From assembly GCF_964204865.1 (NCBI RefSeq), contig NC_135255.1, positions 18,815,135 through 18,879,134 on the forward strand: 64,000 bases of DNA. The letters are read 5' to 3'. Under the pieces are notes generated by a model, which worked only from the letters and a program-made list of their open reading frames with translations, had not been told where the DNA came from and made no database searches. The stretch's first letter is position 1. Each line of letters starts with the position of its first letter. The DNA comes from Styela clava. Lineage: Eukaryota > Chordata > Ascidiacea > Stolidobranchia > Styelidae. Position numbers and translations under genes: made by a program. Positions 13,616 to 59,615 of the stretch are shown piece by piece.

Positions 13616-15315
13616 TTACACCGGAAATCCTGGGAAAAGATAGAAAAATTGTGATAGGCTGGTTTTCTGCTCACTCATCGCTTTCGCTTCATTAGTGCCA
13701 GTTTTTTCTTTCATCGCTCGATTTACTATCGTCAGCATGTCAGCGACATGGTGCTTTGCTGCTTGGCGCATGAAGACATTTGTTATTGCATTAATAAACC
13801 AGGAACCCTCATAGATATTTCGGATGGCAGCATGTTCCTCATGTGTAGGATATGCAACAAAAATATCAGAGACAGTCGGCATTCTTCTAGCGCCATCTGT
13901 TTGAACACAAACTTTTTCGGAGCTTTCCATAACAGGTTCTTTCATTTTATTATCCGCTGCGATAGTGCTTCTATCTATTATTGTTCCCCTGCAAAATTGA
14001 TAAATAAAAAACTTTGGAATGTTTTGCAAGTTTCCATTCTTAGTGTTAAAGAACATCTCCTCGATTTTTTTAACCTCCACCAATTTATGATCACTGCCTT
14101 CGAAAACTGGTTTTCCCTTGTCTATTCCCCCGTGAGTCATGATCACGATCACAATGAAGCTATACTTTGTCTTGATTTCACTCACTTCACCAAGCAAATC
14201 CTTCATTTGTTTTCCAGTTTTGTCACTTTCCCAGGGTTTGGGAAAAGTTTTATTTCCATATAATTTGCATCCAAGTTTCTTCCAGAGAGTTGTCATGTTT
14301 TTCACATCTATCTCAGACCCTTTTCTCTCTTTGCCTTTTATGCCTTTGAAAGTGTTGTTTAAAATCAAAGCTAAGCCCTTTGGTTTGGTGATGCTGTAGA
14401 TCCCCTTATCTGTGAAACTTTTCTCATAATCATTTCTATCACAAGGAATCACTTCAATTTTTTCCACAAGTCCACACAAGTCTTCAATATCAGCTAATGA
14501 AGGTTGTTCCCCACTTCTAGGTTCAGTATCACGGACTCTATTTTCTCTTGGCGAATCCAGTGGGAACTTGAATTTTTTTATCTCTCTGTCAATTCCATTC
14601 TTCTCCATTTCACATTTGATGACAATTTCAGGATATTGCTGAAAGATAGGGAGAAGTTCAAATTCAAAGTTATGTCTGGGCTTCTTTAAAAAGTCGTCAT
14701 TTACGAAAACGGGTTTATTGAACCACAAGTTTTCTGGGTTTCCTTCAACTCGTAGTTTGACATGAATTTTGTCACCACGTCTTAGAACAAACGGGTTAAA
14801 TCTTGCTGGGAGAAGTTTAGCATCTAGGCCTTTATAAAACCCTTTAACACTTTCTTCAGTGCTCAGAGTCGAATTGAAAAATGCAAAGTTAATCTGGTTT
14901 TTGCCAACGAGATAGAATAAATTTTCCTTGACAACTGGGGCAGAAAACAATCGTTTGATAGCGGCAATTACGCGACTGAACTCTTGACAGCGGAATTCTA
15001 TAGTTCTGTCCTGCATGACTAGATCAGGTTTAATAATGTTCCAGTCAGTGTCATTGGTAAAGTGAAGTATTTCAAAATCCTCTTTCTTCAGCTCGAGACA
15101 CCATGACTTCATTTGTACTATTGCATTTTTGCGTAATGTTGATTCTGCACTGATGTCAAGAACTGGTGTGATGGCGACATATTCTGCTGGGCATATTGAA
15201 TTGTCCAATCCAACTGACATCCAAACTTTTGTTTGTTCATTGAATGTTCCATCCGGAAAAGCAACTTTGCATTCGTTAAGATTCATTGTATCCCCTTTAA
15301 TTCCAATCTTTTTGA
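13616..15315 (-). CDS. gene A terminal exon: ZU5-UPA (FIIND-like) caspase
   Basis: This is a predicted caspase-family (C14) cysteine protease. Numbered from the in-frame ATG at 15376, the residues are: ZU5-like about 21-140 ('FPDGTFNEQTKV', 'AITPVLDIS', 'IEFRCQEFSRV'); UPA-like about 141-272 ('LFYLVGKNQINFAFF', 'LRRGDKIHVKL'); caspase about 300-586. Catalytic His415 sits in MTHGG and Cys462 in QFCRG. S1-pocket arginines appear as R351 (RKGSEID) and R519 (AIRN). The exon probably starts at an acceptor (TTTTTTTAG) after 15315 and not at the ATG, because its phase fits the FN3 exon at 16183-16446. ZU5-UPA occurs in PIDD, UNC5 and the NLRP1/CARD8 FIIND. Joining it directly to a caspase is unusual. 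The FIIND autoproteolysis site (F|S) would be F133-S134. The domain calls are by eye; the caspase call is firm. Confidence 0.85.
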
Positions 15316-16109: not shown

Positions 16110-16239
16110 TATAGGCCTACTGTGTTATTCACAGAAGTCAATATCATAAAAAGTGAAAAACTAGATATTCCTCGAACTATACCTTTTATAACATTCTTTG
16201 ACTGAGTCTTAGCTCCAATTTTACCCTGTTTATTCTTGG
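16110..16239. repeat. duplicated FN3 exon/intron boundary, copy 1
   Basis: About 130 bases covering the 3' half of the FN3 exon's end and the following intron ('ataggcctactgtgttattc ... tttattcttg') are repeated with little or no change at 16564-16694. This copy belongs to the intact exon. Confidence 0.85.
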
Positions 16240-16446
16240 CCGAGACTTGGAAATGATATTGTTTACCAAGTGTAGGTGACTTCATTCTATACTGAGGAAT
16301 CTCTGTAGTGTGAGTCTCTCTAAGTTTCACATCATCACAGAAGATTTCTATGTTGTATAGAATGTTGCTGTCAGGTACTCCATCCCAAGTCAAGAGAATG
16401 TCCGATCCACTTCTTCGAGATGAAACATTTTCAATTCGTGGCAAAG
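16183..16446 (-). CDS. gene A internal exon: fibronectin type III domain
   Basis: The exon is 264 bases: acceptor TATTTTCAG| on the high side, donor AAAAG|GTATAG on the low side. It encodes 87 codons with the FN3 pattern: 'LPRIENVSS', 'DILLTW', 'YNIEIFCDD', then 'YHFQVSAKNKQG'. It enters and leaves in the same phase (two bases finish the first codon, one base is left over). The leftover G joins the TC at the start of the ZU5 exon to give valine, so the frame runs straight into VKKIGIKG and the ZU5 domain. An FN3 module ahead of ZU5-UPA-caspase suggests a scaffold or ligand-binding part. The exon upstream of this one is not certain; the frame at 17103-17363 is a candidate. Confidence 0.75.
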
Positions 16447-16563: not shown

Positions 16564-16694
16564 ATATAGGCCTACTGTGTTATTCACAGAAGTCAATATC
16601 ATAAAAAGTGAAAAACTAGATATTCCTCGAACTATACCTTTTATAACATTCTTTGACTGAGTCTTAGCTCCAATTTTACCCTGTTTATTCTTGC
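16564..16694 (-). pseudogene. truncated second copy of FN3 exon end
   Basis: This is a near-identical copy of 16110-16239: the last 20-odd codons of the FN3 exon (KNKQGKIGAKTQSKNVIK), its donor and part of the intron. It lacks the acceptor side and most of the domain, so it cannot encode FN3. The duplicated donor could still act as a decoy splice site. Confidence 0.75.
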
Positions 16695-17102
16695 AATATT
16701 GATAACCTGCAATATTGATATTGCATAAGTATATAGTAGCTCTGAAGTAAATGAGATATCCAAGAAAAATCTCTGTCAATATTATCATTTTTCATAAACG
16801 TCTGTATAAGTAGGACATTATGAAAACATTTCTTAAAATCAACGTCGGCTCTGACTACATAATAAATAAGTTAGCTATGGGTGTTTGTCAGAAACGTATG
16901 TAACAGCACTCTCATGAATCTCGAATCCTCGATGGCACAACGCTGCCATATTATTCTAATATGGATCACGGTATGACACTAACTTAAATGTATGTATAAA
17001 TATCTCAATTATAACAGAGATTAGTGCCATCATCAGCGCAATTAGAAGAGAAAATAAAACCCAAAGGAATTAAATGTCTAGGAAAAGGATGAAATAGTTT
17101 TA

Positions 17103-17363
17103 TTACGAACCCGATTGCTTCTTGATATTAGCCACCAGACCTTTTGAATCATCACTCTTCAGGTTAATCTCAACGTTGGCAGCAAAAGCTGTTAATATAT
17201 CCAAATGAGATGATACGTTATTACACTCTATACCTATTGAATTTTTCCCTTCTACAGTTATCTTATTAGGTGACTTGATCAAGGCCAGTGGCCGTTGTGA
17301 TGGGTTGTTATCACTTCTCCCAGCCATTTCCACTAATGAACATCTATTTACAACAACTTGCAA
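17103..17363 (-). CDS. small protein or 5' exon with two G-K-N amyloid-like motifs
   Basis: The frame is open for 86 codons; an internal ATG (MAGRSDNN) at residue 13 gives 74. It contains 'KITVEGKNSIGIECNN' and, 31 residues on, the weaker 'VEINLKSDDSKGLVANI'. The first matches the linker motifs of genes B and C ('INLKGKNATGIENN', 'INVVGKNAVGIQTN'), and the two-copy spacing matches gene B (33 residues). The stop TAA overlaps an AATAAA signal, which suits a complete short gene. Alternatively this is the first exon of gene A: phase-1 donors such as ATAG|GTATAG exist inside it and would fit the FN3 exon. The upstream sequence is homologous to 21780-21960. A decayed duplicate is the third possibility. 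Confidence 0.5.
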   Translation of the reverse strand: MQVVVNRCSLVEMAGRSDNNPSQRPLALIKSPNKITVEGKNSIGIECNNVSSHLDILTAFAANVEINLKSDDSKGLVANIKKQSGS

Positions 17364-17530
17364 TGAAGCTCAAGGACTAGTTATTCTATCAACATAAAAC
17401 TACTTTTAGAAATAACCTGAAAAAAAATTGTAAATAGTCGGTGATCACAAAATATGAGAAAAACAGTTCAAAGTATATTGATAAACAAGCTGTGTTCTGC
17501 AAACCTTATAAAAGTGGCACAGGGAAAGCA
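17364..17530 (-). promoter_or_regulatory. duplicated 5' flank with TATA-like element
   Basis: On the minus strand the sequence upstream of the small frame contains 'CACTTTTATAAGG' (plus 17505-17517). The whole flank is similar to 21830-22010 ('gtcggtgatcacaaaatat' vs 'gtcagtgatcacaaaatat', 'cataaaagt'). Shared upstream DNA suggests that promoter and first exon were duplicated together. Promoter activity is inference. Confidence 0.3.
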
Positions 17531-19992: not shown

Positions 19993-21660
19993 TTAAAGTG
20001 ACATAGTCATGTTTGAAGGTGACTGGCTGCTGGGAAATAAGAAAAGTTTTTTTGACAAGGTTGAAGTGAATCCACTCATCTGTTTTTCTCCGTCAGTTTC
20101 CTTTCCTTTCCCTATTCTTTTTTCCATTGCATTATTAATTATTGCTGACATTTCAGCTACATCACGATCATGAGCATGTATCCTAAAAACATTGATAAAT
20201 GCATTGCTATGATAGTTCCCATTAATAGCATTCTGGTGTCCAACAAAGCCAGGTTGAGAGCCATAAAGAATAATTGTGTCAGATATTGTTGGAATTTTCT
20301 CTGGTCTTTTACTAGCTCCTTGCGTTGAAGTTGATTCATTATCCTTTCCAAAAACGCAATCTTTGATTGAACGATGTAATTTTTCGACGCCCCAATCAAT
20401 GTTTTTTCCTCTGCAAAATGTAAAAACAAAAACTTTTGGAACGCCTTGTAGCTTTTCTGCGTTCCGATTGTTGAATATAGTTAAAACTTCACTGACTTTT
20501 ATACTTTTGCGATCACTAGCATAAAATATATCCTCTTCATCTTTTTCATTTCCATGTGAAAGAACTACTAGAACAAGACAAGACACTGGCACCTTCATTC
20601 GTGCAATATTTTTCAAAGTTATCAAAAGTTCATCTGACGTTTTTTCTTTGAGTACAAGGAGTTTAAAACCAATTTTTTCAAAATAAATTTTGTGATTTTC
20701 AGCATCCCGCTCAGCCCCATGTCTTTCTTCATCAGTTTCAGAAAATGTGCAAGAAATAATTACAGCAAGACGCCCTTTTTCTTTAGTGATTTGGTAAATT
20801 TCATTTGCCTGTTGATCATAGTCTTTTTTTGATGACAATGTGACTTCAAAATTTTCATTTACTCTTGAGCAATACTCAAGTGGTTCCTCTAGCAAAGGAG
20901 ATTTCTCTTTTCCTATCTCAGTTATGGGTTGCTTCAAGTTGAAGTTATTTCTAACACTCGTTGCATTTTTGCCTTCTACATCAATAGTAACATCGCCGAA
21001 CAAAGATGGAGGAATAGAGTTCGGATCTACTCCAGAATAGAAATTGTTCTCAATACCTGTTGCATTTTTCCCTTTTAAATTAATTTTAAGTGAGGAGAAT
21101 AATGGTGCCACTGCCTTATGTGAAAATCTTCCTGTTGGCTTCATTTCATCACTGTTAGAACTTCCATCATATACGTCACCATCTAATGGTGTCCGTCCGG
21201 TCCGGTCAGTGTCACCAGACATAACATTCGAGGCAGAATTTTTAGGTACCGGGGCACTTCCTAATGGCACATTCACACTTTGTTCATTTCTTGAAATTCC
21301 TTGTGCATCAGAACTCAGGGGAGGGGCATCCCAGGAGTGAACTCCTACTACTGAAGAACCTTGCTGTGCGAGTCGGACTTCCTGTGGCTGATGAGCCCTT
21401 TGTGGAGGTCTTTCATCCCGATATTCCATAAGTTGCTCGAGAAGGTCGACTGTAGCGATTCTCCCTTTTTTTCTTTGCCATGTCAGGACCATCTGATATC
21501 TCTGTTCAATCATCCCTTGCATTTGATAATTACATTCGCATTCTTCGATCTCAACTTCCTTCAACCCCAGTTTTATTTTTGCAATTTGAGGCCATTCGCT
21601 TCTTTTTACAGCTCTGACAACTTCGTAAATCCGAGATGCTTCATTTTGATTTGATGCCAT
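19993..21660 (-). CDS. gene B: death domain - amyloid-like motif x2 - divergent caspase
   Basis: A 555-residue intronless frame. Residues 8-82 form a death domain ('EQRYQMVLTW', then 'GRIATVDLLEQLM'). A polar linker follows, with two copies of a motif: 'LKINLKGKNATGIENNF' (191-207) and 'VTIDVEGKNATSVRNNF' (224-240), 33 residues apart. The caspase spans about 265-540, with His369 (LSHGNE) and Cys416 in TFCRG. The large-subunit S1 arginine is kept (R313, ERHGAERD). The small-subunit one is not: the segment reads 'FVGHQN' (Q476) where the siblings read 'xxFRN/FRH', and GSWF(Y)INA has become GNYHSNA. So substrate recognition is altered or lost while the catalytic dyad remains. The C-terminus stops at a transposon end. 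A role in cell death or immune signalling follows from the family; amyloid behaviour is inference. Confidence 0.9.
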   Translation of the reverse strand: MASNQNEASRIYEVVRAVKRSEWPQIAKIKLGLKEVEIEECECNYQMQGMIEQRYQMVLTWQRKKGRIATVDLLEQLMEYRDERPPQRAHQPQEVRLAQQGSSVVGVHSWDAPPLSSDAQGISRNEQSVNVPLGSAPVPKNSASNVMSGDTDRTGRTPLDGDVYDGSSNSDEMKPTGRFSHKAVAPLFSSLKINLKGKNATGIENNFYSGVDPNSIPPSLFGDVTIDVEGKNATSVRNNFNLKQPITEIGKEKSPLLEEPLEYCSRVNENFEVTLSSKKDYDQQANEIYQITKEKGRLAVIISCTFSETDEERHGAERDAENHKIYFEKIGFKLLVLKEKTSDELLITLKNIARMKVPVSCLVLVVLSHGNEKDEEDIFYASDRKSIKVSEVLTIFNNRNAEKLQGVPKVFVFTFCRGKNIDWGVEKLHRSIKDCVFGKDNESTSTQGASKRPEKIPTISDTIILYGSQPGFVGHQNAINGNYHSNAFINVFRIHAHDRDVAEMSAIINNAMEKRIGKGKETDGEKQMSGFTSTLSKKLFLFPSSQSPSNMTMSL

Positions 21661-21840
21661 GGCTCCAAACGACTGATGACAATTATCAGATAAGACGATA
21701 TCGCATAGAAAATTTCACGTAAGGAAATTTTTCCCTTTACCCTAATTTTAAGTGAAGCCAATAATGGTGCCACTTCCCTTTGTGATGAGTCTTTATCACG
21801 TCCTTCAGTCATATATTTCCACAAATGAACATGTATTTAT
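21661..21840 (-). pseudogene. decayed duplicate of motif segment upstream of gene B
   Basis: The minus strand reads 'REVAPLLASLKIRVKGK', closely matching 'KAVAPLFSSLKINLKGK' of gene B. It diverges straight after GK and runs into the 5' side of gene B. The higher-coordinate flank matches that of 17103-17363. It is either a 5' leader made from an old duplicate or a dead exon. Confidence 0.6.
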
Positions 21841-22807
21841 CTCCACTGGCAATGAAGCCCCAAGACTAGTAACTCTATCAGCATAAACTAGGTACTATTA
21901 TAGCTAAGCTAGACGTAAAAACAGAAATAGTCAGTGATCACAAAATATCGAAAAATGATTAAACATTATCAATAAAAATGCATCTAACCTCATAAAAGTT
22001 GGGGGAGCTAATACGAAAAAGATATTTCATTTTAATATTAAAAATTGTTAATCATACAGTTCTATTCTGGAATTTATAGTTATTTCGTTTGGACATGACA
22101 TCGCTATGACAAAAAAGAATTTCAATGAAACGTAAAATTTAAATTATTTCAATCATATAACCACTAAAATATATTGATAATTGAAGAATAAAACAGTAAA
22201 AATGGAACAATTCAATCCAACAAAGCAAAATTAATAGAAATGAAATAAGAGCCATTAAAGTAAGCATAGTGATAATACAATAAGATACATTTCAATACAT
22301 GAGAGTGTAGGCTTTAGTTTTTGCTATACAGAGCCTGCCTAAAAGTCACACAAGATATGGGTAAGCAAGAAAAGTAATCAATGTAAATCAGTGGTCTTTA
22401 AACTTTTTAAGCCTTTTTAGAATTTGTCAAGTCTCGCGCCCCACCTCAAAAAAAATAGATAACAATACAAATAAAAGATGTTTTATTCAAAACGAGTGTC
22501 CACGTATGTTTTATTCTAATGTTAAGTTGATGGAACGTAAATATCAAATAAAGCAGGCAAGATCAAATCCAACAAATATTTTTATTTTTAATTAAGTAGC
22601 TTTACACCCAACAAAAAATTACACTGATGTAGATTCATGATAATGGATATTGATGACATAATAATAATGCCCGTGAAGACCACATGAGTCTGGAAATAAT
22701 TCGTTCCTCCCAAAATTCACTGTATGGATTTTTCAGAAAAAATGCAGTAATATCACTTAACCAAATTCTTAAAGATCAGCTTGGAATAGCAATAATCATG
22801 AATATAG
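21841..22807. other. intergenic region between genes B and C
   Basis: The part to about 22010 is the duplicated 5' flank shared with 17364-17530. At 22391-22470 lies a fragment sharing 'tttttagaatttgtcaagtct' and 'ccccaccT' with the hAT MITE at 42311-42552. I see no gene. Confidence 0.5.
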
Positions 22808-22813
22808 TTTTAT
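22808..22813 (-). promoter_or_regulatory. polyadenylation signal of gene C
   Basis: AATAAA on the minus strand lies about 45 bases past the TAA of gene C. Confidence 0.6.
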
Positions 22814-22855
22814 TTACATTCGTTGGACATCTCTATACACAGGAACTGCTAATAA

Positions 22856-24781
22856 TTATATGAATTCAGCTTCGATATCTTTGGGGAAGCCGGGAAAGAA
22901 GAAAAGTTTCTTTTTTAGGGTAGATGTAAAATCACTCATTTCTTTGCCTTCATGCACTGATCGATCCTCAGTGTTGATCGCAGTTTTACTGGAAACTGCG
23001 TTATTTACGATTGTCATTAGCTCCACCAAGTGTTGATCATGAGAATGACGCATAAACACGTTAATAATAGCATTTATGTACCAGCTTCCATCTCGTTGGT
23101 GACGAAACGCTTTAAATCCAGCTTGCGTTGCAAATGAGACCATCGTGTCTGACATCGTGGGTTGTTTCGAAGTTTGAATACCGTGGCTATCTGATGCATC
23201 ACCAGATGGGGGCACACCGCTACTTTGACGTACTGTAGCTTCGAGCGAGTTAAATAGATTTTCAGCTGGTATATCTACACGCTCCATATGCTCAGATCCC
23301 ATATCTACATTACCTCCTCTGCAGAACTGAAAAAAGAATAGCTTCGGTATTCCCTGTAACCTTGCAGCATTCTTGTTATTGAAAATCTCCAACACATCTT
23401 TCACCTTCACCGGGGCTCTATCAAATCCATAAAAGACATCGTCACCATTAAGTTGATCGCCATGCGACATGATTACCACAGCCACAAAATCGCTCGAGCA
23501 AGCTGCCGGCGATTTAACAAAATTCCGAAAAGTTTGGATACTTTCCGCAGCTGTTATATCTGTTCTTGAAAACACCTTGCAGCCCAGTTTGTCCCAAAGA
23601 AGTTCCATATTTCGCCTATCCAAATCAGAGCCATGTCTTTCGTCTGGTTGTCCTTGAAAAGAATTGTTTAAGATCAACACAGTGCCTTTTGGCCTGTGAC
23701 TTATCTTGTAGATGATATCCTGCTGCTCCAAATGTTGATCATAGTCTTCGTCATCTGCGGGTTTTATATCGATCTCCCCAACTGCAGCACAGTATTCTGC
23801 TGTTTCTGGTAGTACCGGCTTCTTCGGGCGTTTAGTTTCAACTTTCTTCCCACCAAAATAATAATTAGTTTGGATTCCGACTGCATTTTTACCGACGACA
23901 TTGATTTGAACATTATTCATGAACCCTCCAAGTCCTTGAAGTTGTTTTGTCAAGTTTGGGATAGGTGATGCTTTATTTCCAATAGTTTCATATTCTGTGG
24001 TGCGAATGCGATTTGTTGTGCTGGTCCCGAGTTCTTTAGGATTAGTCAAGTCAGGATTGTCCCTATTTCTGCTAGATGAGCTGTTGTTTGGTGCACTACT
24101 TTCCATTTCGAAGGAAGAAGCTGATCTCCCAGGTGTATTAGAGCTACTGTTAACCTGCATGCTTGCCGTAAAACTTGGTGTGCCTTGGTTCAGGTGCACA
24201 CAATTCTGATTTCCGCTTTGATTTGCCGGTGGTTGTCCAGGCTCAGTAAACGTTTGCTGATTGCTGTCTTGTAAGGATGAAAATGCATGAGGCATGCTTG
24301 CCTCACCATGGATAGGTATACTTCTCAAAGATTCTTGATCAATGTCCATTGGTTCGATATTATTTGCGCCAGATTGAGATGGGTGCCTTCTCATAGAGTC
24401 ACAGACAGAGTTATCGCTATGGGTAGGGTTTCTGTGTCCAACGTCGTGCGTCGCAGGCTCAGGCTCTCTCGAATTTGTATTTTGCTCTGGCGGCTGGGAT
24501 AAATACCTTCGAAAGCTATCCACCAATTTGTGAAGATTTTCAGGAGTGGCTTTACGCCCATTTCTTCTTTGCCATAGCGATAGCATTTGATATTTCTGTT
24601 CTTTCACATCATGAATATAGTCCGCTCTGATGTCATCGATTTGATATTCGGTTAAATTCAACCCTCTCGTTCTGCTGCGAGCAAACTCTTTCCACTCACT
24701 GTTATTGCTAAACAATTTCATGACTTTATAAAACTCATCTTCAATTCGTTGATGGCTGGCAGAGCCTTTATTTTGTGCCAT
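22856..24781 (-). CDS. gene C: death domain - amyloid-like motif - caspase
   Basis: A 641-residue intronless frame. It begins with a death domain (about 10-93; 'EQKYQMLSLW', 'GRKATPENLHKLV'), which should recruit it to death-domain adaptors. A long Ser/Asn/Gln/Pro-rich linker follows (about 94-285). Then comes the motif 'VQINVVGKNAVGIQTNYYFG' (291-310) and a caspase domain (about 330-632). Catalytic His440 is in IMSHGD and Cys487 in QFCRG. S1 arginines are R382 (ERHGSDLD) and R560 (FKAFRH), followed by GSWYINA, so this copy looks catalytically competent. The inter-subunit segment (about 500-540) contains Asp residues such as SGDASD, where self-processing could occur. It is the clearest member of the cluster. 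The ATG at 24781 starts just ahead of the death domain. Confidence 0.93.
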   Translation of the reverse strand: MAQNKGSASHQRIEDEFYKVMKLFSNNSEWKEFARSRTRGLNLTEYQIDDIRADYIHDVKEQKYQMLSLWQRRNGRKATPENLHKLVDSFRRYLSQPPEQNTNSREPEPATHDVGHRNPTHSDNSVCDSMRRHPSQSGANNIEPMDIDQESLRSIPIHGEASMPHAFSSLQDSNQQTFTEPGQPPANQSGNQNCVHLNQGTPSFTASMQVNSSSNTPGRSASSFEMESSAPNNSSSSRNRDNPDLTNPKELGTSTTNRIRTTEYETIGNKASPIPNLTKQLQGLGGFMNNVQINVVGKNAVGIQTNYYFGGKKVETKRPKKPVLPETAEYCAAVGEIDIKPADDEDYDQHLEQQDIIYKISHRPKGTVLILNNSFQGQPDERHGSDLDRRNMELLWDKLGCKVFSRTDITAAESIQTFRNFVKSPAACSSDFVAVVIMSHGDQLNGDDVFYGFDRAPVKVKDVLEIFNNKNAARLQGIPKLFFFQFCRGGNVDMGSEHMERVDIPAENLFNSLEATVRQSSGVPPSGDASDSHGIQTSKQPTMSDTMVSFATQAGFKAFRHQRDGSWYINAIINVFMRHSHDQHLVELMTIVNNAVSSKTAINTEDRSVHEGKEMSDFTSTLKKKLFFFPGFPKDIEAEFI

Positions 24782-25405: not shown

Positions 25406-26184
25406 CGGTCTTACTACTTACTGAATACAGCGCGAAACACCGCAAAGAGCGCAAAACAGTGCGAAACAGCGCAAAACAGAGGGAAACAGCGCAAAACAGT
25501 GTGGAAACAGCGCAAAACAGCGCGAAAGTGCGCAAAACAGAGGGAAACAGTGTGAAGCAGAAAAAATTTTTGCAATGAGTTCGGGGCACCTTGTTTTGAG
25601 TTGGAGTACCACGGCAGCAAATTAAAAACACAAACCAACGTATGTAGCCAGTAATGCTGTAATGACAGGTCTGCCCCTGCTGGTGACACATTTTGGGTAC
25701 CATAATTTAGAACATTTTCCATATGGATATGGTTGGCTTTAGGGTTAGGGTTAGGTAAAAGGGACCTCCAGAAGTATGTGCACCAAGATGGCGCACAACC
25801 TGAAAAGAGTATGTGTGTGTGTAGCGGATTCAGGTTGTGCGACATATTGCTGCACATACTTCTGGAGCACCAAAAAGGTAGATAAAATTTCGCATGGTGA
25901 CCTATAATCCGGTACATAACCTTGTAAATATGCCGGAAATAGCGCCATAAAACCATGGCGAGAGGCGCCGTGGTTCTTTCGTGGCAGGAGGTGGTAATGA
26001 CTACGTCTCCTGTTTTGCGCTGTTTCCCTCTGTTTTGCGCTGGTTTCCTTCTGTTTCGCGCTGTTTTCCTCTCTTTTGCGCTGTTTCACGCTATTTTGCG
26101 CTGTTTCGCGCTCTTTTGCGCTGTTTCGCGCTGTTTTGCGCTCTTTGCGGTGTTTCGCGCTGTATTCAGTAAGTAGTAAGACCC
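25406..26184. mobile_element. foldback element with 9-bp target duplication
   Basis: The arms (25406-25560 and about 26008-26184) are long inverted repeats built of short units such as 'gcgcaaaacag' and 'gcgcgaaacag'. The outer ends 'cggtcttactacttactgaa' and '...cagtaagtagtaagaccc' are inverted with one mismatch. Both sides are flanked by 'cttgaaaat' (25397-25405 and 26185-26193). A 9-bp duplication and foldback arms suit a Mutator-like foldback element. The loop carries a nested MITE at 25762-25872. Confidence 0.85.
25762..25872. mobile_element. short MITE nested in the foldback loop
   Basis: The arms 'gaagtatgtgcaccaagatg' / 'gcgcacaacctg' and 'caggttgtgcgac' / 'gcacatacttctgg' mirror one another. 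It is the same family as 10994-11103. Confidence 0.75.
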
Positions 26185-30220: not shown

Positions 30221-31663
30221 ATGTCATCAAAAATTCCTGGGAAACAGATTTATAAATTCATTGATAAATTTGATACTCAACCAGAATTTCTCGAATTTGC
30301 TCGAAGTGAACTCGAAATTAGTAATCGTGAGATAAATGATGTTACCGCAGATCACTCTGGTAGCAGAGAGCAAAAATATCAAATACTATATCTATGGGTT
30401 AAAAAAAATGGCCGTGCAGCGACTCTCGAAAAGTTAGAGCAGCTGAAACATAATTTTGACACTGGTAATGAGGAAAATGATGAAGAAGTTCAACAACAGC
30501 CCACTTCGAGTTACTCGGAACCGGGAAGAGCTCGGGTTCCGCCACCAGGTGGTGTACAACAACCCAATAATACATCAGTTAAAAGAGTCGCTGTAGAAAG
30601 TTCCTCTGAATCAAAAACACCTGCACATGAAGTCCAAAAAGCATTTAACGAAAAATACAGTCACGTTGAGCAACAACTAAACTCTCGACATGAAGAAATA
30701 TCGGTAGGCAGCATTGCTGATCAATTTTGCGAATTACAAACTGCTAATGAATCCCATCTATGCGGGGAAGTTGCTTCAATCAAAGTGCAGAGTTGCTCAC
30801 ATGAGGATATACACTCAATAATGAGGCATGATAACATTTATCAAATATCTCCAAATCCCAAAGGATATGTGCTTATAATAAACAATAATTTTCGAGGGCA
30901 AGAGGGAGAGAGAATCGGTGCGAAAAAGGATGTTGAAAACATGAATCGTTTATGGAGTGAATTGGGTTGTAAAGTTGCTGTAAAAGAGGATTTAAACGCA
31001 GTTGAAATTCGTGATACATTAGAAAAAGTAGCACGATCTCCAAATATATCAGCGTATAGTTTTGTTGTGGTCTTCATTATGTCTCATGGCGATATACAGA
31101 ACGGCACTGAAGTTGTGCTTGGCGCAGACAGCTCTCCTGTTACAATCAATCAAATTTTAGCGCCATTCAGTAATGACAGATGCCGAGCATTAGCAGGAAA
31201 ACCGAAGTTATTTTTCTTGCAGTTTTGCAGAGGATGTATTATTGACACTGGAGGAGAATACCTTTGTCAAGATGATAGGCTAGAAGATTTATTCAAATCT
31301 TTAATGAACCATTTTCCTTCTGAAGAAGTTTGCATGAGTGATTTGAGCAGCCAACGAAGTTTACCAGTAAGGTCTGATATGCTCATATCATACGCAACAC
31401 AATCAGGTTATATGGCATTTCGCAATGGAAGAGGAAGTTGGTTTATTAATGCAATAGCAAATATATTCATGAAGTACGCTCATATTGAGCATGTCGCTGA
31501 TTTAATGATTCGTGTGAGAAGTGCAGTCTGTGCAAAAACTGGGTTAACTCCGTTGAATGACACTATAAATGTACCATGCAAAGAGATGAGTGAAAGTAGT
31601 GACTTTCTGACTAAAAAACTTTATCTACTCCCTGGATATCCAAGGGATGATATATTGGATTAG
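30221..31663 (+). CDS. gene D: death domain caspase without the linker motif
   Basis: A 480-residue intronless frame starting at the ATG at 30221. A death domain occupies about 8-80 ('EQKYQILYLW', 'GRAATLEKLEQL'). A short acidic and Pro-rich linker follows, lacking the G-K-N motif of genes B and C. The caspase covers about 185-475. Catalytic His289 is in IMSHGD and Cys336 in QFCRG. S1 arginines are R231 (ERIGAKKD) and R401 (YMAFRN), with GSWFINA next, so the enzyme looks intact. The inter-subunit segment is about 345-385. It lies on the opposite strand from genes A-C and 5.4 kb from gene C, with transposons between. By family it should act in apoptosis or immune signalling; the partner is unknown. 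Confidence 0.93.
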   Translation: MSSKIPGKQIYKFIDKFDTQPEFLEFARSELEISNREINDVTADHSGSREQKYQILYLWVKKNGRAATLEKLEQLKHNFDTGNEENDEEVQQQPTSSYSEPGRARVPPPGGVQQPNNTSVKRVAVESSSESKTPAHEVQKAFNEKYSHVEQQLNSRHEEISVGSIADQFCELQTANESHLCGEVASIKVQSCSHEDIHSIMRHDNIYQISPNPKGYVLIINNNFRGQEGERIGAKKDVENMNRLWSELGCKVAVKEDLNAVEIRDTLEKVARSPNISAYSFVVVFIMSHGDIQNGTEVVLGADSSPVTINQILAPFSNDRCRALAGKPKLFFLQFCRGCIIDTGGEYLCQDDRLEDLFKSLMNHFPSEEVCMSDLSSQRSLPVRSDMLISYATQSGYMAFRNGRGSWFINAIANIFMKYAHIEHVADLMIRVRSAVCAKTGLTPLNDTINVPCKEMSESSDFLTKKLYLLPGYPRDDILD

Positions 31664-39690: not shown

Positions 39691-40048
39691 GCAAAAGTAT
39701 TCACATTCATAATCTGCACCAAGTTGTGCTTTACGTCACAGCACAGAGATCAGTATATTCTCATAATTGTGCTTAATTGAAACAATACTGAATCAAATTA
39801 ATATTTTATTCAATATCGATTTAACCACAAAAGTATTGCACACTATTTTATTATAAAATCTGCAATCATCTTAAAATACTTTTAGTCTGAAAGCGGGAAA
39901 GAAGTTTGAACATGATGACCTATGGTCTCAAAACATTAGATGAAACAGAAAAGCATAAATAATCAGCCCAATTCTAGTTATTCATGAGAGTGGAAAAATT
40001 CGAACCTCCCATGATAATATTGACAATGGCGGAAGTTTTATAGGCCCC

Positions 40049-40806: not shown

Positions 40807-42216
40807 TTAGTCTACTTCTGGCATGGTTTCGTTATCAGTGTTGCAGGAATCGGGAATTTCATCAGAATGAAGTTCACAACTTAAATATTTGACTTCAGGG
40901 GCACATTCCTTGAAACTTTTAAACTGCAGACCTTTATCGACACACTCCCATGTTCTTGTATATACATGATAAAGGAAACAAGGGTATCTCTTTACAAAGA
41001 AGTCCCATAAGCCATTAACAGAACACCCGAATGCATGCTTGGTACCATTATCATCTTCCCAAATATGTACGTAACGATTGCGAAAAAAACGCATCAATTC
41101 ATATAGGGATTCGATGTTATAGTTCTCAGCCAGCTTTCCAAGAGTTTCTTTTTCCACTTTACATTCTGAACCTTGATTGATGTCCTCCAGGTCTTTATCA
41201 TCTATTTTAAGCTTTGCTTTCCAATCTTTATTTGCGAACACAAGAGATCCATCCAATGTGTAGTTTGACTTTAGCTTTTGGTCATAGGCTTCTTTGTAAG
41301 GCTTTTTATCACCTTTGACCTCCATTTTCAGGTAACTGAAAATTGTATCAATGAATTGACATTTCTTCGATTCAGACCAAAAAAATGGATGGCTAAGAAT
41401 ATTTTCATATCCAAATTCTCCGTCACACATTTTAATTATCAAATCATAGGCCAATGTGGGTTCATTATATTTCAAGAATCCATTTATAGAGTTCAGTTTT
41501 GTCATAAATTTGTCTATCAACTCAATTTTTTCGTTTATACGTTCATTCTCTGGTTTTGCACTCAATGCTAGTAAGCGAAGTTTATTTTTGAACTCTTCAT
41601 CTAAAGAGAACAAAATTTTTATTAAGTCTGACGCGTTAACCTTCTGTTTTTCATTACACAGTTTTGTCAAGTCATTGTATGTTTCACAATTAGGACTATG
41701 ATCCGCAACATTTCCATCTGAGAGAACATACAAAAAAATTTTAGCCAGATACTTCAAATCTTTGGCTTCAGTGTATGGATGAGCATCTGCAATGGCCAGT
41801 TGTTTACGTTTAGTGCATAGATAAATACAGGAAGAATCAAACTGTCCATGTACCACTTTATTCTTTTGCAAATCATACAGGCAATGCGTTATTTTTGAAA
41901 GCAGTTCCACACGAAACGAAGTAGTTAATCTCTCACATTGTTTGCTATTGTTCATGCCATGTATGGAAGTATCAACCGTGGTACTTTTCTGTTGACTTTG
42001 TATAATTTTTCTAAGAGATTCTTTGTAATTCACATTGGCTTCAAGAATGCTAGAACTCGACTTTGTTTTTTTTGATGCACTCGTAAAGGTGATGAAATGG
42101 TAAATAAGTCTTTGGTTTGATTGACTCGTTGATTTCACTTCTATGACATCAGCCTCATCTTTGAAATTTGTAATGGTGGTTGCTTTGCTATCTCGGTCAA
42201 TCAAATCATTATCCAT
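40807..42216 (-). CDS. gene E: pseudokinase-KEN ribonuclease (RNase L/IRE1-like)
   Basis: A 469-residue frame. The C-terminal third matches the KEN (kinase-extension nuclease) domain shared by IRE1 and RNase L. 'LSHPFFWSESKKCQFID' (275-291) is the hallmark kinase-KEN hinge, and 'LYELMRFFRNRYVHIWED' (371-388) carries the R-N-x-x-x-H catalytic pattern (R379, H384) with RNase L spacing. 'FFVKRYPCFLYHVY' (406-419) is the closing helix. The kinase part is degenerate: the catalytic loop reads VVHGQFDSSCIYL (no HRD) and the DFG position reads IAD, so no kinase activity is expected. No ankyrin repeats (RNase L) or lumenal/membrane part (IRE1) are visible. The frame is open upstream of the ATG to an acceptor-like TTGCCCAG, so 5' exons may exist. 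Likely role: regulated RNA cleavage in the cytosol, perhaps antiviral (inference). Confidence 0.85.
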   Translation of the reverse strand: MDNDLIDRDSKATTITNFKDEADVIEVKSTSQSNQRLIYHFITFTSASKKTKSSSSILEANVNYKESLRKIIQSQQKSTTVDTSIHGMNNSKQCERLTTSFRVELLSKITHCLYDLQKNKVVHGQFDSSCIYLCTKRKQLAIADAHPYTEAKDLKYLAKIFLYVLSDGNVADHSPNCETYNDLTKLCNEKQKVNASDLIKILFSLDEEFKNKLRLLALSAKPENERINEKIELIDKFMTKLNSINGFLKYNEPTLAYDLIIKMCDGEFGYENILSHPFFWSESKKCQFIDTIFSYLKMEVKGDKKPYKEAYDQKLKSNYTLDGSLVFANKDWKAKLKIDDKDLEDINQGSECKVEKETLGKLAENYNIESLYELMRFFRNRYVHIWEDDNGTKHAFGCSVNGLWDFFVKRYPCFLYHVYTRTWECVDKGLQFKSFKECAPEVKYLSCELHSDEIPDSCNTDNETMPEVD

Positions 42217-42302
42217 GGATAGAATAGTATAAATCTTATCAATAATTTCTGGGCAATATAAAGATATGGATTAAGCGTATAAGATATAGGCAAAACTAAT
42301 CA

Positions 42303-46054: not shown

Positions 46055-46608
46055 TTATAAAGTTTGAAAATTGCATAAATGTCATAATTGCATATTGCAT
46101 AGCAACTATGTAATACTGGGGTCACACTCAAGCAAAATTATATATCAAATGGAAGTAGAATAGTTTAATAGTTATGAAAATTAGTGCTAATGCTAAATTG
46201 AATATATATAAAAGTTTGTCAAATGTAAAGTTTTTTGTAAAAAATACTGTGGAAGAGTTGATGCGGAGTGAAGTTGAAGTTCAATATATCAAAGCAGGTT
46301 TCTGAACAAAACAAAAAATGATTGTTTCAAATATATTTGAACTAATTGGATATTTCAGAAAAGATTGTTTATCAAGTGGCTAAAAATATTTGTTCATTCT
46401 ATTTGTAAGCAGAAAGTAAATTTAGGAAAAATAATTGTATTAAAGATAAAAAAGAAATGGAAGAATTTACAACAGAATTACAGTTTCCGCTGTATTTCAA
46501 ATATTCTTCAACTTAGCAGAAAATTACGATAATGGTTTGGTATTATTTGAGTTATCCACTTATGCAGGTCCGATATACAATGATCCATGAAAAACTAATT
46601 TTACTTAC

Positions 46609-46782
46609 ATTGCAAACGTTAAGTTCCTCCAACATTTTTTGTAGAAATTGTTTGGATGAAGGAGTCATTGATTTGAATTTAATGATGAGCTTCTTTGAGA
46701 CATGTCGTAGGAGACCACTGACAGCCTTTACATATTCCAGTGAAACCGAGCGATGTTCGTCACTCAAATTCAGTGATTCAAT
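46609..46782 (-). CDS. LRR gene F, exon 8 (last seen)
   Basis: 58 codons, acceptor GAATTTAG| and donor AAT|GTAAGT, phase 0 at both ends. 'IESLNLSDEH' opens an LRR. If the donor is not used, the frame stops at 46552. The sequence is more diverged from the LRR consensus than its siblings, as expected near the C-terminal end. Confidence 0.65.
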
Positions 46783-47639
46783 CTAAATTCAACAATAAAC
46801 TTAAAACAACTTTAAAGCGGACTCATTTTGTTCTATTTATTAAATATTTTCAGCACTGGCTGATTGACTGGCAATTTAAGACATGTGCAATATTTGAAAT
46901 TTTTTTGTTACTATAGTGAATATAGTTTGCAGGTTCGAATCTCGCCAGTGGCGCAACCAGGCCGTTTTCAACAGGAAGGGGGGTGTTTGGCCGGAATTGA
47001 CACAGTGCAACCACAACATAAGTAGCAACGCCACCAGGTGTCACCCCAGTGTCGGAAACCTGATAAATTCGTAATATCCAGCTATCTACCTTTGAGGTAC
47101 GTATATCGTATATTATTACCTATACGATGAGCGACATTATTATTGCAGACTAACAGCAATAACTTATCCTAAACATGAAGACGGGCAGGAGTTAAATTGC
47201 GTTAAGATGAAGCACGAGAGTATTCGTTACAAGAGAGAGCGTGATACATTCTCATTCTCGAATACAAACATATATGTTGGGAAAGGACAATAACAAAAAA
47301 ACCGAACCCAGGAAATTTGGAAAACATATTCTAGATCAGGGATGGTGAACCACTGATCCATGGGTCACAATGTCACCCACCAAGTCTTTTCAGTGTCCCG
47401 TCAAGTCACGCATCATGGCAAAAACATTCCCATAATTTATTGATAAAATATAATAAACCCGGCTTTATTTCAATCTAACATTAAAGTGAACTACGATAGC
47501 AGAGATGACGAACATGCGGCCTGCCAAAGAATGTCATGCGGCCCTCGAACCATTCAGGACTGTACCGAGAAAAACGGGAGCGCTAGTATTACTGGCAAAG
47601 CTATTACCAATACTTACATATTGTTTTGGTGAACCATTG

Positions 47640-47920
47640 TGACCTTTAACATTGGATCAAAATGACCATTGTCACATTGTCTTATCAGCATACGCATAGA
47701 GGTTAATGGACGAAGGGGTAACCTTACTTTGTGAAAATGTTTTGGCGGAATCCGGAAATTCCCATGTAACAGTCGTCGCAATCAGGTCATTCGTGAAAGG
47801 AGACGACTTTCTCGACAGACAACGATTTTTCGAATATGTATTCTATCGACGGCCGATACGAGCATTTCAAGTGTCTTTAAGTTGTATTAATCTAATTTTG
47901 GTATCTCGCGGTTGAAAGAA
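47640..47920. repeat. dispersed repeat in LRR intron
   Basis: 'ggatcaaaatgaccattgt', followed by related sequence to about 47740, recurs at 63260-63380. No coding role is seen. Confidence 0.5.
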
Positions 47921-48229
47921 ATCTTGGTGAGAAAATTCCCAAGACCTATAGTAAAACCTCAAGACTCTATAATTTATTTTGGTACAATTGATAATTTATT
48001 GGAGATATTTACATTGATTAGCAGAAAGGATTCGAAAATACATATTTATCGCCTCTAAATCCCCATGAAAGTGCTTTTGAGACAGTTGCTACGATTACGT
48101 CACTTGCTACAAGGTCTATTTTATCGGGTAATGATTTTTCAGTCGCACAAAATATTCAATCCACGACCAATACGAGTCTATTTATAAAGTCTTACTTTCG
48201 GGGCATCGTGTACAAAAATCCACTCTTAC

Positions 48230-48394
48230 TTCTGCTTTATCATCCAACGCGCAGACAAACTCATACACATTTTCTGTTGAAAGCATGCATTGACTTAAGT
48301 TCAAATTTTTCAGATTGCAGATGTTCATTAAATGTGCAACTTCAGCGACGCCTCTACCAAGTACAGGATTGTCAGATATATTCAGTTTTTCGAG
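48230..48394 (-). CDS. LRR gene F, exon 7
   Basis: 55 codons, acceptor TATAACAG|, donor GCAGAA|GTAAGA, phase 0. It encodes 'LEKLNISDNPVLGRGV' and 'LKNLNLSQCMLSTENV', two LRRs with the L-x-x-L-N-I/L-S-x-N/C signature. Confidence 0.75.
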
Positions 48395-48731
48395 CTGTTA
48401 TAGAAACAAAATTGTGTTAGAGATCTTCGTGGTCAAGGCAAATGTTGGGTTTATAATGTTGCTACCTAACAGTCAATGAGAACCATCAAAATGTCGCTAA
48501 AAGGAATTGAATTAAGAAATTCAATTCAATTTGGCTAGTAAGAAAATTTTTCCAATCATAAACAGGGTTTTTATATTTAAATTGTGTTGTTAAGTATAAT
48601 ATATTTTTGACTTCTTTCTAAGGATGCCTTCTATGGATCAGATTCACCAGACATATAACAACAACTACACCATGTAACATAATTTCTAACTTCCAGAAAA
48701 TTTATTACTGTATTTATAATTAAAAATTCAC

Positions 48732-48908
48732 CTTCAGAGGTTTAATGGAATTTTCCAAAGGCTCTGTAAACATTTTCATATGTTCAGAATTCAAGCTGCA
48801 GCCAGCAATTCCCAAGTAATTAACTTCAAACTTTGTAACCAATGTTCCAACCACAGACATACCACTTGGTTGTAGAGAAGCATTGTAACTCACATCAAGC
48901 TCAAAAAT
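48732..48908 (-). CDS. LRR gene F, exon 6
   Basis: 59 codons, acceptor CATTCAAG|, donor CTGAAG|GTGAAT, phase 0. It encodes 'IFELDVSYNASLQPSG' and 'VNYLGIAGCSLNSEHM', two LRRs. Confidence 0.75.
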
Positions 48909-49386
48909 CTTGAATGAATAAACAAAAAATAACATTTTTATCTTGAATATTGAAATCTCTTTTAATGATGTTTGAGATTCAAGAAATAAAAGTTATCGGG
49001 TCTGGGCAATAAAATACATCAACTCTTGGTAAATTATGCCAAGTTTTATAAGCATTCTCGCGCTCACACCACCGCATACCCTTCATCGATGCGCAATTTG
49101 GAATTTTTTTGAGAATGGTCAAGTGTCAGAAAATTACTGAACTCTTGGCCGCCACAATGTGGTTTAAAAACTGCTGGTTGGTTATGGATTTCTTCAATGT
49201 CGAAGTCTAGCATGTTCATGCATGAACTACAAAGCTATCCTAAATCTACCGTAATAAGTTTTTTTTCCATTAATAAACAACAAGATGGGAAAATAGTTAT
49301 TGGGAGAAAATATTGGAAATCAGTTTCGAAATATCGTAAAACTAAATGTAGGAACCATAGATAATGATTAAATCCATATAACAAAC

Positions 49387-49572
49387 CTTGGTAGTTTGAT
49401 AGTCAAACTTCTGTAACACATTCAATTTTGATTCATCGATATCACAGCATCGAAGAGATAACACCCTGTATATTTGTGAAGTTTCACATATTTCAGAAGA
49501 TAACAGTTGTCCAATTCTTTGTAAGCTTGTTGCTGTAATATTGCCATTTCCACTGAAATTTAGGACTTCCAT
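49387..49572 (-). CDS. LRR gene F, exon 5
   Basis: 62 codons, acceptor TATTTTTAG|, donor CCAAG|GTTTGT, phase 0. It encodes 'MEVLNFSGNGNITATS' and 'YRVLSLRCCDIDESKL', two LRRs. Confidence 0.75.
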
Positions 49573-49619
49573 CTAAAAATAGTTAATAGATCTTCTTGTC
49601 GCCATGTCTGCATAGTTAT

Positions 49620-49990
49620 CACACTGGATATTTATCTACACTCTGGTGGTGAAGTGATCAAGCTCACATTTAACCAAAATATGGTTTCATTGACTGGCTT
49701 TTCTAAGAGCTGTTTTTTTTTGTCAGAACCAACTTCTAGCTGGGACACACTAAAAATAGAATGTATAATAGAATGTTATAAACCACAGGAAAATCTAAAG
49801 AAGAGAATCCGATGGGGAATAATTGTGTGCAAAAGGATTGTTGGAGCCATAGCTGTTAAAAAGTATTTCATGTTTCTTCAACTACAGAGCCCTTGCATCT
49901 GAACAAATAACCGGGAAATTATCCGCATACCCAACTTGGATTGGTAATCAGATAAGAGGTTATACTTTGTCATATAATTAGGTCTTATCT
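49620..49990. mobile_element. degenerate SINE fragment in LRR intron
   Basis: 'cttgcatctgaacaaataac', 'catacccaacttggattggt' and 'aatcagataagagg' are diverged pieces of the SINE body. Confidence 0.4.
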
Positions 49991-50223
49991 TCTTTACACT
50001 CGAAAATCACATCCTATTTGTCAATCTGTCAGCACTTTTTCCGAATTTAGATGAGATATATATGTGAACAACTAAAAAATTTGAGTATTCTAAAAAAGGC
50101 CAAAAGAGTTTTCATACATCTTGAATATGTAATTGTTAAATATATATGAATACTTCATGTCAGATTTTCGAAGTATGTTTAATTTGGTAATCATGCCATT
50201 ATTATAATATAGTTTTTTTTTAC

Positions 50224-50397
50224 CTTTTTATCACCAAGATGTTGACAAAAGGTTTCAACTTTTGTATCATTCAAGTTGCAATCCATCAACACAATTTCAG
50301 TTACTGGAAGCATTCGAACAACTTCCCCCAGATGATCAAAATTGGTTAGAAGTCTATTTCGGCTCATATCCAGTCTGCGAAGTTTGATACCTGTCAT
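50224..50397 (-). CDS. LRR gene F, exon 4
   Basis: 58 codons, acceptor TTCAACAG|, donor AAAAAG|GTAAAA, phase 0. It encodes 'LRRLDMSRNRLLTNFD' and 'VTEIVLMDCNLNDTKV', the clearest LRR pair of the gene. The pattern of alternating N-type and C-type repeats is that of NLR-family LRRs. Confidence 0.8.
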
Positions 50398-51028
50398 CTG
50401 TTGAATAAAAGTATAAAGATATACTGGCCTGAGAGTTTCACAGATTAACAACCCTGTCCAAGTTCAAGCCAGCCCGACAATAAATTCACAACTAACTTTC
50501 TCTTATGATGAGAGATGCCAAAACTGAAAATTTTCATAAATATGACTGGCGTTCTATTGCAGTATTTACGGGCTGTAGAGTTGAATACAGAGTTTCCCAT
50601 TTTCGGGCAATATATAGATTATGGATTATGGAACTTTGAGAGTGCAGCCATCAGCATTCACAGTACTAAGGTTGCAAATTAGATACTCTTTGACAAAAAA
50701 GAAGTTTAATCTCAATTTAAGCACCCCATGTTTCTAATAAAAATTTAAATCGCCCGTAAAAATTAGTTATAAAAGTTTCAGTTTCGAGTTACTAGCATTA
50801 GTGGACAACAGAAAAAGCTCAGAAAACAGCTTATTGAGAGAATGATTTGGAGCCAACATCAAAAGTGTCCAGCTGCTAAATGCTGAAGGTCATATCAGTA
50901 TCGTCAATGTATTCGGCAATTGCTAAAGTATCACAAATTTAACACAGTCTGTGATATTTTTCAAAATAAGCTAATAGACTTGCTTTAAGCCTCCAACCAC
51001 AATAAGACCCCAGAAGTAAAATACATAC

Positions 51029-51190
51029 CTCAAGTTTTTCAACAGTTTCTTTCATGACTTCTAAATCACAATTTTGAATCCTAACTGCCCGAATCTCAAG
51101 AATTTCAGTGTTTGCCTTTTCCACAAGTGATAACAAAGAGTCGCAGTACTGCTGAAGATTTTCAACTCCCCAAACATGAATTTTAGCAAT
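51029..51190 (-). CDS. LRR gene F, exon 3
   Basis: 54 codons, acceptor TTATTTTCAG|, donor CTTGAG|GTATGT, phase 0. It encodes 'IAKIHVWGVENLQQYC' and 'EIRAVRIQNCDLEVMK', two weak LRRs. Confidence 0.7.
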
Positions 51191-51658
51191 CTGAAAATAA
51201 ACATATTATTTTTTCAAATTCTTGAACAATGGATTTTACCTGTTTATCCTCAAGTAAAGTTCATATAGCAAACTAGTACCCAAGTCAATGGTTCCGAATG
51301 CATAAGTAAATCCAGTGTCAATTACGGCATAATACTAAAAATTAAAAAAGTATCAGATCACAAAACCTCTATTTTGAGGTGAAATTATGTCTGGGACGTA
51401 GTTCAAGAAGATCTGCTGTATCGTCTTCTTTCAATTGGAATGTAACCTATTTTAAATCCTTGCAAATAAGAAGATTTTATTTCAAATATGACTAATGTTT
51501 GGTTTCTAACTAAGGTTTCTAATGTTTTTGATTATTTGATTTAGACCCCAAACAACGCTAGCACTAACTGCCGCTAGTTTATCCCATGCAAAACGGATTT
51601 GAAACCTAGTTAGTAGAAGTGGAATAACAGTGAAAAAATAAAACAACAGTACCGTTAC

Positions 51659-51924
51659 CTGACAATCAGTTTTTTCTATTTTTCTGAAGAAGTTTTTGAG
51701 ATCCTGCGGTTTCCCAGTATTGTGAATAGTCAACGAATTCAGCTTTTTACATTTTGAAATGATTCCATAAAATACTTTTATATTTGAATTATTCAAATTG
51801 TAATTTTTCACAGATATTTCGTGTACACACTCTTGTACCACAATTTCTGGAGCATTTCTATACTTGTGGAACACTTCCACGAGGTCAAATGTGTCTTTTG
51901 CTCCACTGAGGCCCTGTCTGAAAT
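51659..51924 (-). CDS. LRR gene F, exon 2
   Basis: 266 bases. The acceptor TTTCCTAG| supplies AT to complete the codon begun by the G left from exon 1; the donor is TGTCAG|GTAACG. It encodes a helical segment ('TFDLVEVFHKYRNAPEIV') and the first LRR ('LNSLTIHNTGKPQDL'). The alternative acceptor six bases on (ATTTCAG) would break the frame. Confidence 0.7.
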
Positions 51925-52079
51925 CTAGGAAACATTAAAACTGGAGTTAGTATTTATATCAAATTATTTAACTGTACTGTCATTGCATATTCATATTCGC
52001 GGCTTCTCGACAGTATTTTTTTCTATTTAGTTTAGCATGCTTAGTTGACATAATTAGACAGTCCATGATTAGAATAGTA

Positions 52080-58744: not shown

Positions 58745-59615
58745 CTCAAAGCAAAGTCTCACACACTCAGAAGTAAGGAGACTTATTTCTGAGCAAAGTT
58801 ATGAGCACTCACTAAAAGTAACGGAGACTCTTTTCTGAGCACAGTTATATGCACACACTCAGAAGTAAAGTAGACTCATTTTAAGGCAAAGTTACAGACA
58901 CTCACTCATAAGTAAAGAAGACTAATTTCTGAGCAAAGTTATCGGCACTGACTCATAAGTAAAAGAGACTTATTTCTGAGCAAAGTTACGAGCACTCACT
59001 CAGAAGTAAAAAAGATTCATCTCTGAGTGAAGTTATGGGCACTCACCCAGAAGCAGGGAGACTCATTTCTGAGCAAAGTTACGAGCACTCACTCAGAAGT
59101 AAAAAAGATTCATCTCTGAGTGATGTTATGGGCACTCACACAGAAGTATGGCGACTAATTTCTGAAAAAAGTTATGGGCACTCACTAAAAGCAAAGAAGA
59201 CTCATTTCTGAGCAAAGTTATCGGCACTCACTCAGAAGTAAAGGAGACTCCGTTCTGATGAAAGTTATGGGCACTCACCCAAAAGTATGGAGACTAATTT
59301 CTGAAAAAAGTTATGGGCACTCACTAAAAGCAAAGGAGACTCATTTCTGAGCAAAGTTATGGGCACTCACTCAGAAGTAAAGAAAACTAATTTCTGAGCA
59401 AAGTTATGGGCACCTACTCATAAGTACAGAAGGCTTATGTCTGAGCAAAGTTACAGGCACTCACTCAGAGGTAAAGGAGACTCATTTCTGAGCAAAGTTA
59501 TGGACCCTCACTCGTTAGTGAGAAGACTCATTTCTGAGCAAAGTTACAGGCACTCACTCAGAAGTAAAGGAGACACTCGGTAGTAAGGAAACTTATTTCT
59601 GATCAAAGTTATGGG
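58745..59615. repeat. minisatellite, about 54-bp unit, roughly 16 copies
   Basis: The unit is 'ggcactcactcagaagtaaa' followed by 'ggagactcatttctgagcaa' and 'agttat'. Copies vary by substitutions and small indels ('gaaaaaagttatggg', 'gattcatctctgag'). The array starts about 230 bases after the exon at 58411-58511. Confidence 0.9.

Follow-up and report, generated by a model that had tools for sequence, protein, structure and literature searches.

A conserved and portable linker motif that may mediate self-association in some Styela clava caspases

A 64,000-nucleotide stretch of the genome of Styela clava, an ascidian tunicate (contig NC_135255.1, positions 18,815,135 to 18,879,134, hereafter the window) contains caspase genes, two of which, genes B and C, carry a short motif in the linker between a death domain (DD) and a caspase domain. 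The copies in the window follow the approximate consensus I-x-[VL]-x-G-K-N-[AS]-x-[GS]-[IV]-x-x-N, which reads as a strand, a G-K-N turn and a second strand (written out, I-x-V-x-G-K-N-A-x-G-I-x-x-N). We find that the motif is real, conserved and portable, being present in some of the caspases of Styela clava and in P0007 and P0008, which are related to gene C; it may stick caspases together in an amyloid-like manner. The reading that we prefer, tentatively and with a confidence somewhat short of even, is that the motif is a portable self-association module that clusters caspases, for which an assembly of the amyloid type is plausible but unproven.

Genes B and C are each a single open frame (Table 1), and in both of them, as in gene D of the same window, the Pfam Death and caspase domains are above the cut-off, in agreement with an earlier reading of the DNA from its letters and open frames alone (the sequence-only reading), which had taken B and C for death-domain caspases. 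The protein of gene B is 93% identical over its full length to Styela clava LOC120330782 and that of gene C is 99% identical to LOC120328466, and residues H440, G441 and C487-R488-G489 of gene C do not vary among the proteins aligned (8/8). All three motif strings quoted in the sequence-only reading were found, on the minus strand, and the 33 residues that it gave between the two copies of gene B correspond to a measured spacing of 99 bases. Its range for the motif, 21040 to 24000, includes the gene C copy and the first gene B copy, and the second gene B copy (20985-20944) lies just outside. The copies of B and C are paralogous rather than independently invented.

The sequence-only reading had held that the motif would be refuted if it were conserved no better than by neutral drift; instead, the core is retained in P0007 and P0008 (ITVSGKNAIGIQTN and ISVFGDHAVGIQTN), whose identity to gene C is 50% and 42-43% in alignments over 99% of gene C. 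When these three sequences were compared, with the core picked as the motif beforehand, the three-way identity of the core (residues 293-306 of gene C) was 0.64 (9/14), with a mean BLOSUM (blocks substitution matrix) score of 3.57, whereas that of the 188 linker residues 100-287 was 0.08, and the best of the 174 14-residue windows of this linker reached a BLOSUM score of 1.74. The corresponding identities of the DD and the caspase domain were 0.54 and 0.49. Pure drift is therefore rejected, and the description of the motif as a conserved island in an otherwise unconserved linker holds for these three sequences. As far as the alignment indicates, the motif is conserved as strongly as the folded domains and the linker is hardly conserved, and we propose that the motif is a short element maintained by selection. 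In addition, none of the 6 differences between gene C and its database record (641 positions) falls within the motif, and one change (D to E) between gene B and its record is located inside copy 2.

A strict regular expression applied to the six frames of the window gave five sites, three in genes B and C, one at 17261 in gene A and one at 40018, the last of which lies in a short frame between stops and was taken as chance. Chance as the origin of the motif itself was rejected by comparing left-out profiles with shuffled windows. A profile built from gene C and its two relatives only scored gene A at 14.9 bits and gene B at 13.7 bits, against a best score of 12.8 bits and a mean of 6.6 bits in 40 dinucleotide-shuffled windows; the margin of gene B over the shuffles is thin, and only its copy 1 is among the best 8 matches. 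With a profile built without gene A, gene A scored 17.9 bits against a shuffle maximum of 10.2 bits (mean, 7.1 bits). Outside genes A, B and C, no motif copy in the window exceeded the profile inclusion threshold.

Gene A appears to represent a second motif architecture at the level of a gene model, with a motif pair at the N-terminus and a caspase domain; no DD was found by Pfam, either in the caspase exon or in residues 1-413 of the model. Copy 1 sits in an 88-residue open frame (17106-17369). The degenerate copy 2 has a best ungapped BLOSUM score of 23.7, which was equalled by 0 of 2000 shuffles of the stretch (shuffle maximum, 22.2), and only its first strand was detected by the profile, at 2.1 bits. 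Joined at phase-1 splice sites throughout, the three proposed exons would encode a protein of 726 residues. The fibronectin-like similarity of exon 2 is shared with two other Pfam families that are as weak there as fn3, and part of the 3′ end of this exon, splice donor included, occurs a second time at 16628-16729 on the minus strand. An exon with two motif copies 32 residues apart was also found at locus L011 on contig C10; it begins like exon 1 of gene A, and the DNA alignment shows upstream DNA common to both. It is followed by a DD-like stretch, and because this stretch contains two stop codons the L011 gene looks decayed, so that the motif-pair exon and the interrupted stretch together (L011:4325-4929) are likely a pseudogene. 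A truncated remnant of the motif exon, homologous to gene A exon 1 and to L011, lies directly upstream of gene B.

The genome searched comprises 376.6 Mb, and 28 of the 36 match rows fell wholly or partly inside scanned stretches and 8 outside. Searching it with the gene B pair returned two places, gene B itself and L011, and the sensitivity of this search is low because genes A and C were not recovered. A protein-database search with the motif region gave 33 candidates, among which the motif was present only in the two Styela clava records of gene B, and none of the 37 stretches matching the pattern in the prokaryote genomes scanned was confirmed. Among the open-licence papers listed, no title or abstract described a conserved linker motif in tunicate caspases or the architecture that carries it, and a description may be published elsewhere. 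In amphioxus and Ciona (PMC3196919, PMC10923776), the death-fold caspases of invertebrate chordates likewise join a recruitment domain to a caspase domain, and one amphioxus caspase has both a DED and a DD (PMC3196919); the passages compared are silent on any conserved motif in the linker.

In the AlphaFold model of gene C, which was based on a shallow alignment of ten sequences and has a mean predicted local distance difference test score (pLDDT) of 53.4, the DD and the caspase domain are mostly confident, with low stretches such as 489-543. The pLDDT is below 50 over residues 97-325, a region that includes the motif at 291-309, and confidence rises again at 326, about 20 residues past the motif core. 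Low pLDDT with so shallow an alignment supports disorder without proving it, and the linker that holds the motif is probably disordered. The sequence-only reading had named structure prediction as the check on whether the motif belongs to the caspase fold, and the model places it, with low confidence, outside both the DD and the caspase folds. When the 7-residue windows of each linker were ranked for aggregation propensity, using a published scale, the most aggregation-prone window lay in the motif in gene C (rank 1 of 229) and in P0008 (1 of 191), and the motif of P0007 ranked 7 of 219.

RHIM and HET-s-family homotypic motifs are commonly located in disordered linkers, duplicated, or placed at the N-terminus. 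Because the probably disordered linker, the duplication and the N-terminal use of the present motif resemble these arrangements, self-association is, by analogy, taken to be its most likely mode of action. The motif pairs are spaced by 33 residues in gene B, 31 in gene A and 32 in L011, and gene C, P0007 and P0008 have a single copy. HET-s-related repeats consist of a 21-residue unit with a loop of 6-18 residues in 154 of 155 sequences (PMC4518210), and a spacing of 31-33 residues would fall within their range. The paired copies and the N-terminal place in gene A favour an interaction module without singling out amyloid. In the mechanism that we infer, the motif would be unfolded at rest in the linker between the DD and the caspase domain, as predicted for gene C, and the proteins would be clustered by a receptor or adaptor through the DD or, in gene A, through the motif itself. 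Motif strands of several molecules would then stack as strand-turn-strand units, probably with an amyloid-like cross-beta core, and the stacked motifs would keep the caspase domains near enough to activate. Caspases with and without a DD could co-assemble through the motif.

Several results weigh against this mechanism, among them the comparison with known amyloid motifs. None of six motif segments matched any Pfam family at E values up to 10, and none of three longer segments did, although HMMER filters can lose weak short matches, which limits these negatives; in PDB only irrelevant matches were obtained (E of 4.2 and 7.6). The profile check against amyloid-motif families advised in the sequence-only reading thus yielded no Pfam RHIM or HET-s match. 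HET-s, whose fibril structure is 2KJ3 (PMC4518210), was not matched in Pfam or PDB, and it was unchecked whether 2KJ3 was within the PDB set searched. Of the earlier interpretation, a real and conserved motif, repeated in some proteins and set in a probably disordered linker between DD and caspase domain, is supported; its amyloid nature is conjectural, and these searches revealed no sequence relationship to RHIM, HET-s or the other families in Pfam and PDB. The RHIM, known from the tetrad RIPK1, RIPK3, ZBP1 and TRIF (PMC12119088), is comparable in being short and conserved, in its alternation of hydrophobic with polar residues and in belonging to proteins of death signalling, and RIPK1 joins it to a DD (PMC12119088), but the Styela motif is without the G-(I,V)-Q-(I,V)-G core (PMC7885112). 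At the corresponding position gene C and its relatives have G-I-Q-T-N, the two copies of gene B have G-I-E-N-N and S-V-R-N-N, and gene A has G-I-E-C-N. A canonical RHIM is rejected, since the core is missing in the copies of A, B, C, P0007, P0008 and L011, and the earlier remark that N stands where the core has G was correct. RIPK1 homologues are reported as not found in tunicates in the passages of PMC12119088.

HRAM1-5 are similar in the asparagine near the start of the unit, possibly, for the proteins with paired copies, in the two pseudo-repeats at comparable spacing, and in being N-terminal in one protein and ahead of an effector domain in another. The HRAM rules place hydrophobic residues at 5, 8, 10, 16 and 18 and glycine at 19 (PMC4518210), and these positions are not fitted by the Styela motif; in gene C, checked by eye in one register (N of GKN as position 3), two of the five hydrophobic positions fit (5 and 18), polar or charged residues stand at 8, 10 and 16, and glycine is missing from 19. 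HRAM was rejected on this register. PP, BASS and PUASM resemble the motif in their length of about 20 residues, their often polar N and Q, their beta-arch-like character and their association with NLR or effector proteins, but by direct reading the motif copies fit neither the PUASM pattern FxGxGxQxxGxGxF (PMC9815663) nor PP, which shares the RHIM core (PMC7885112).

Nor is the motif general among caspases. The best motif score in the linker of gene D was equalled by 974 of 1000 shuffles, P0003-P0005 gave no profile matches (P0004 and P0005 being judged by eye and profile only), and only its position makes the trace KISLQMEDPNGVQD in the paralogue P0003, degenerate at best, suggestive, since its score was matched by 87 of 1000 shuffles. 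The upstream stretches of other caspase genes were all without the motif by profile (10/10), and in 8 of these the longest frame begins DD-like by eye. Because gene D and these ten stretches are without it, the motif is, on the sequences compared, optional for the caspase enzyme. A further cluster of compact caspase genes with short linkers, most of their N-termini DD-like by eye, is located at 19.24-20.09 Mb of contig C6, on which the window itself occupies 18815135-18879134, and the motif was not found in the stretches scanned there. The turn is not absolutely fixed, GKN being replaced by GDH in P0008, and the aggregation propensity of the gene B copies is not outstanding (ranks 14 and 28 of 171). 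In the AlphaFold model of the gene B pair, either copy begins with a single strand (residues 11-16 and 44-49) predicted at low confidence, the mean pLDDT is 50.8 and there is no confident arch, and the exon joins of gene A are those of a splice model only. Finally, a receptor sharing the motif was not found in genome searches that were few and whose motif-only query missed the known copies of A and C; this absence counts little against self-assembly.

The failure to match a Pfam or PDB amyloid family would also be expected if the motif were a short linear one whose folded partner (an adaptor, a receptor or an inhibitor, for instance) is bound through an added beta strand or hairpin, its duplication serving avidity with no self-assembly. 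The conserved island is short, lies in a linker that is probably disordered, and is duplicated and portable, all of which suits such a motif, and a strand-turn-strand with a G-K-N turn also fits a hairpin. However, with its alternating hydrophobics and its G, N and Q the motif extends over some 20 residues, which is long for a linear motif, and no candidate partner was found; we regard partner binding as the main alternative, somewhat less probable than self-association. The motif could instead act in cis by docking on the DD or the caspase domain of the same protein, perhaps as a strand that autoinhibits or extends a sheet, and its position is compatible with this: in B and C the end of the core is separated by about 58-60 residues from the Pfam caspase match, and in the gene C model by about 20 residues from the point where confidence rises. 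Docking in cis is nevertheless improbable, as the motif is predicted outside the caspase fold with a pLDDT below 50, is missing from the ten other caspase stretches, and in the gene A model would lie about 400 residues from the caspase match. That the motif is part of the caspase fold was rejected on the same model and the same ten stretches. The Styela clava genome has dispersed copies of the motif exon and remnants of it, as it would if a recently copied exon or linker of an expanding family had been kept by youth instead of function. Yet relatives at 50% and 42-43% identity retain the core when the remaining linker has diverged, a conservation result that, from the sequences, largely contradicts recent copying, which we consider very improbable.

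The preferred self-association reading has a more specific form, in which a HET-s-like paired motif would template the caspase beside the DD (B and C) or instead of it (A) as a non-RHIM animal signalling amyloid; this form is doubtful, though a conserved, portable and sometimes paired motif in animal caspases makes a concrete candidate for it. Amyloids of animals have been raised as an open question (PMC7889193). If the proposal is true, helical death-fold polymers and cross-beta polymers would be combined within one protein, and should partner binding prove correct, the motif would represent a means of recruiting caspases of which the papers listed as above gave no description.

Table 1. Motif copies and caspase genes in the window
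Feature	Positions	Strand	Evidence
Gene B, DD-linker-caspase, 555 aa, single open frame	19996..21660	-	Pfam Death E 9.8e-07, Peptidase_C14 E 3.5e-36
Gene B motif copy 1, INLKGKNATGIENN	21043..21084	-	Regular expression and profile
Gene B motif copy 2, IDVEGKNATSVRNN	20944..20985	-	Regular expression and profile
Gene C, DD-linker-caspase, 641 aa, single open frame	22859..24781	-	Pfam Death E 2.4e-11, Peptidase_C14 E 6.4e-44
Gene C motif, single copy, INVVGKNAVGIQTN	23864..23905	-	Regular expression; kept in P0007 and P0008; pLDDT <50
Gene A, proposed first coding exon with motif pair, ending in phase-1 donor	17111..17327	-	Splice model
Gene A motif copy 1, ITVEGKNSIGIECN	17220..17261	-	Six-frame scan and left-out profile
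Gene A motif copy 2, degenerate, NVEINLKSDDSKGLVANI	17124..17177	-	BLOSUM score; 31 residues after copy 1
Gene A, proposed exon 2, weakly fibronectin-III-like	16183..16446	-	Phase-1 splice sites; Pfam fn3 E 0.01, below cut-off
Gene A, proposed exon 3, region without family assignment, then caspase domain	13616..15315	-	Peptidase_C14 E 1.6e-33
Truncated motif-exon remnant, MTEGRDKDSSQREVAPLLASLKIRVKGK..., second motif half missing	21716..21812 (limits approximate)	-	Alignment of its DNA to L011 and to exon 1 of gene A
Gene D, DD-caspase without motif (comparison)	30221..31660	+	Pfam Death and caspase

Other features of the window were noted as well. A 486-residue frame at 40813-42270 on the minus strand has a Ribonuc_2-5A (KEN) domain (Pfam E 8e-11) after a stretch that is kinase-like by eye, and it looks like an RNase L/IRE1-type gene near the caspases. 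At about 46500-51930, also on the minus strand, several frames are leucine-rich-repeat-like by eye (best Pfam match LRR_1, E 0.0098, below cut-off) and are possibly exons of one leucine-rich-repeat gene. Degenerate repeats of the GCGCAAAACAG type occupy 25414-26170, with forward units to one side and reverse-complemented units to the other as judged by eye, and repeats of the RRLISEQSYEHSLRSKKDSSLS type span three open frames at 58963-59583 on the plus strand.

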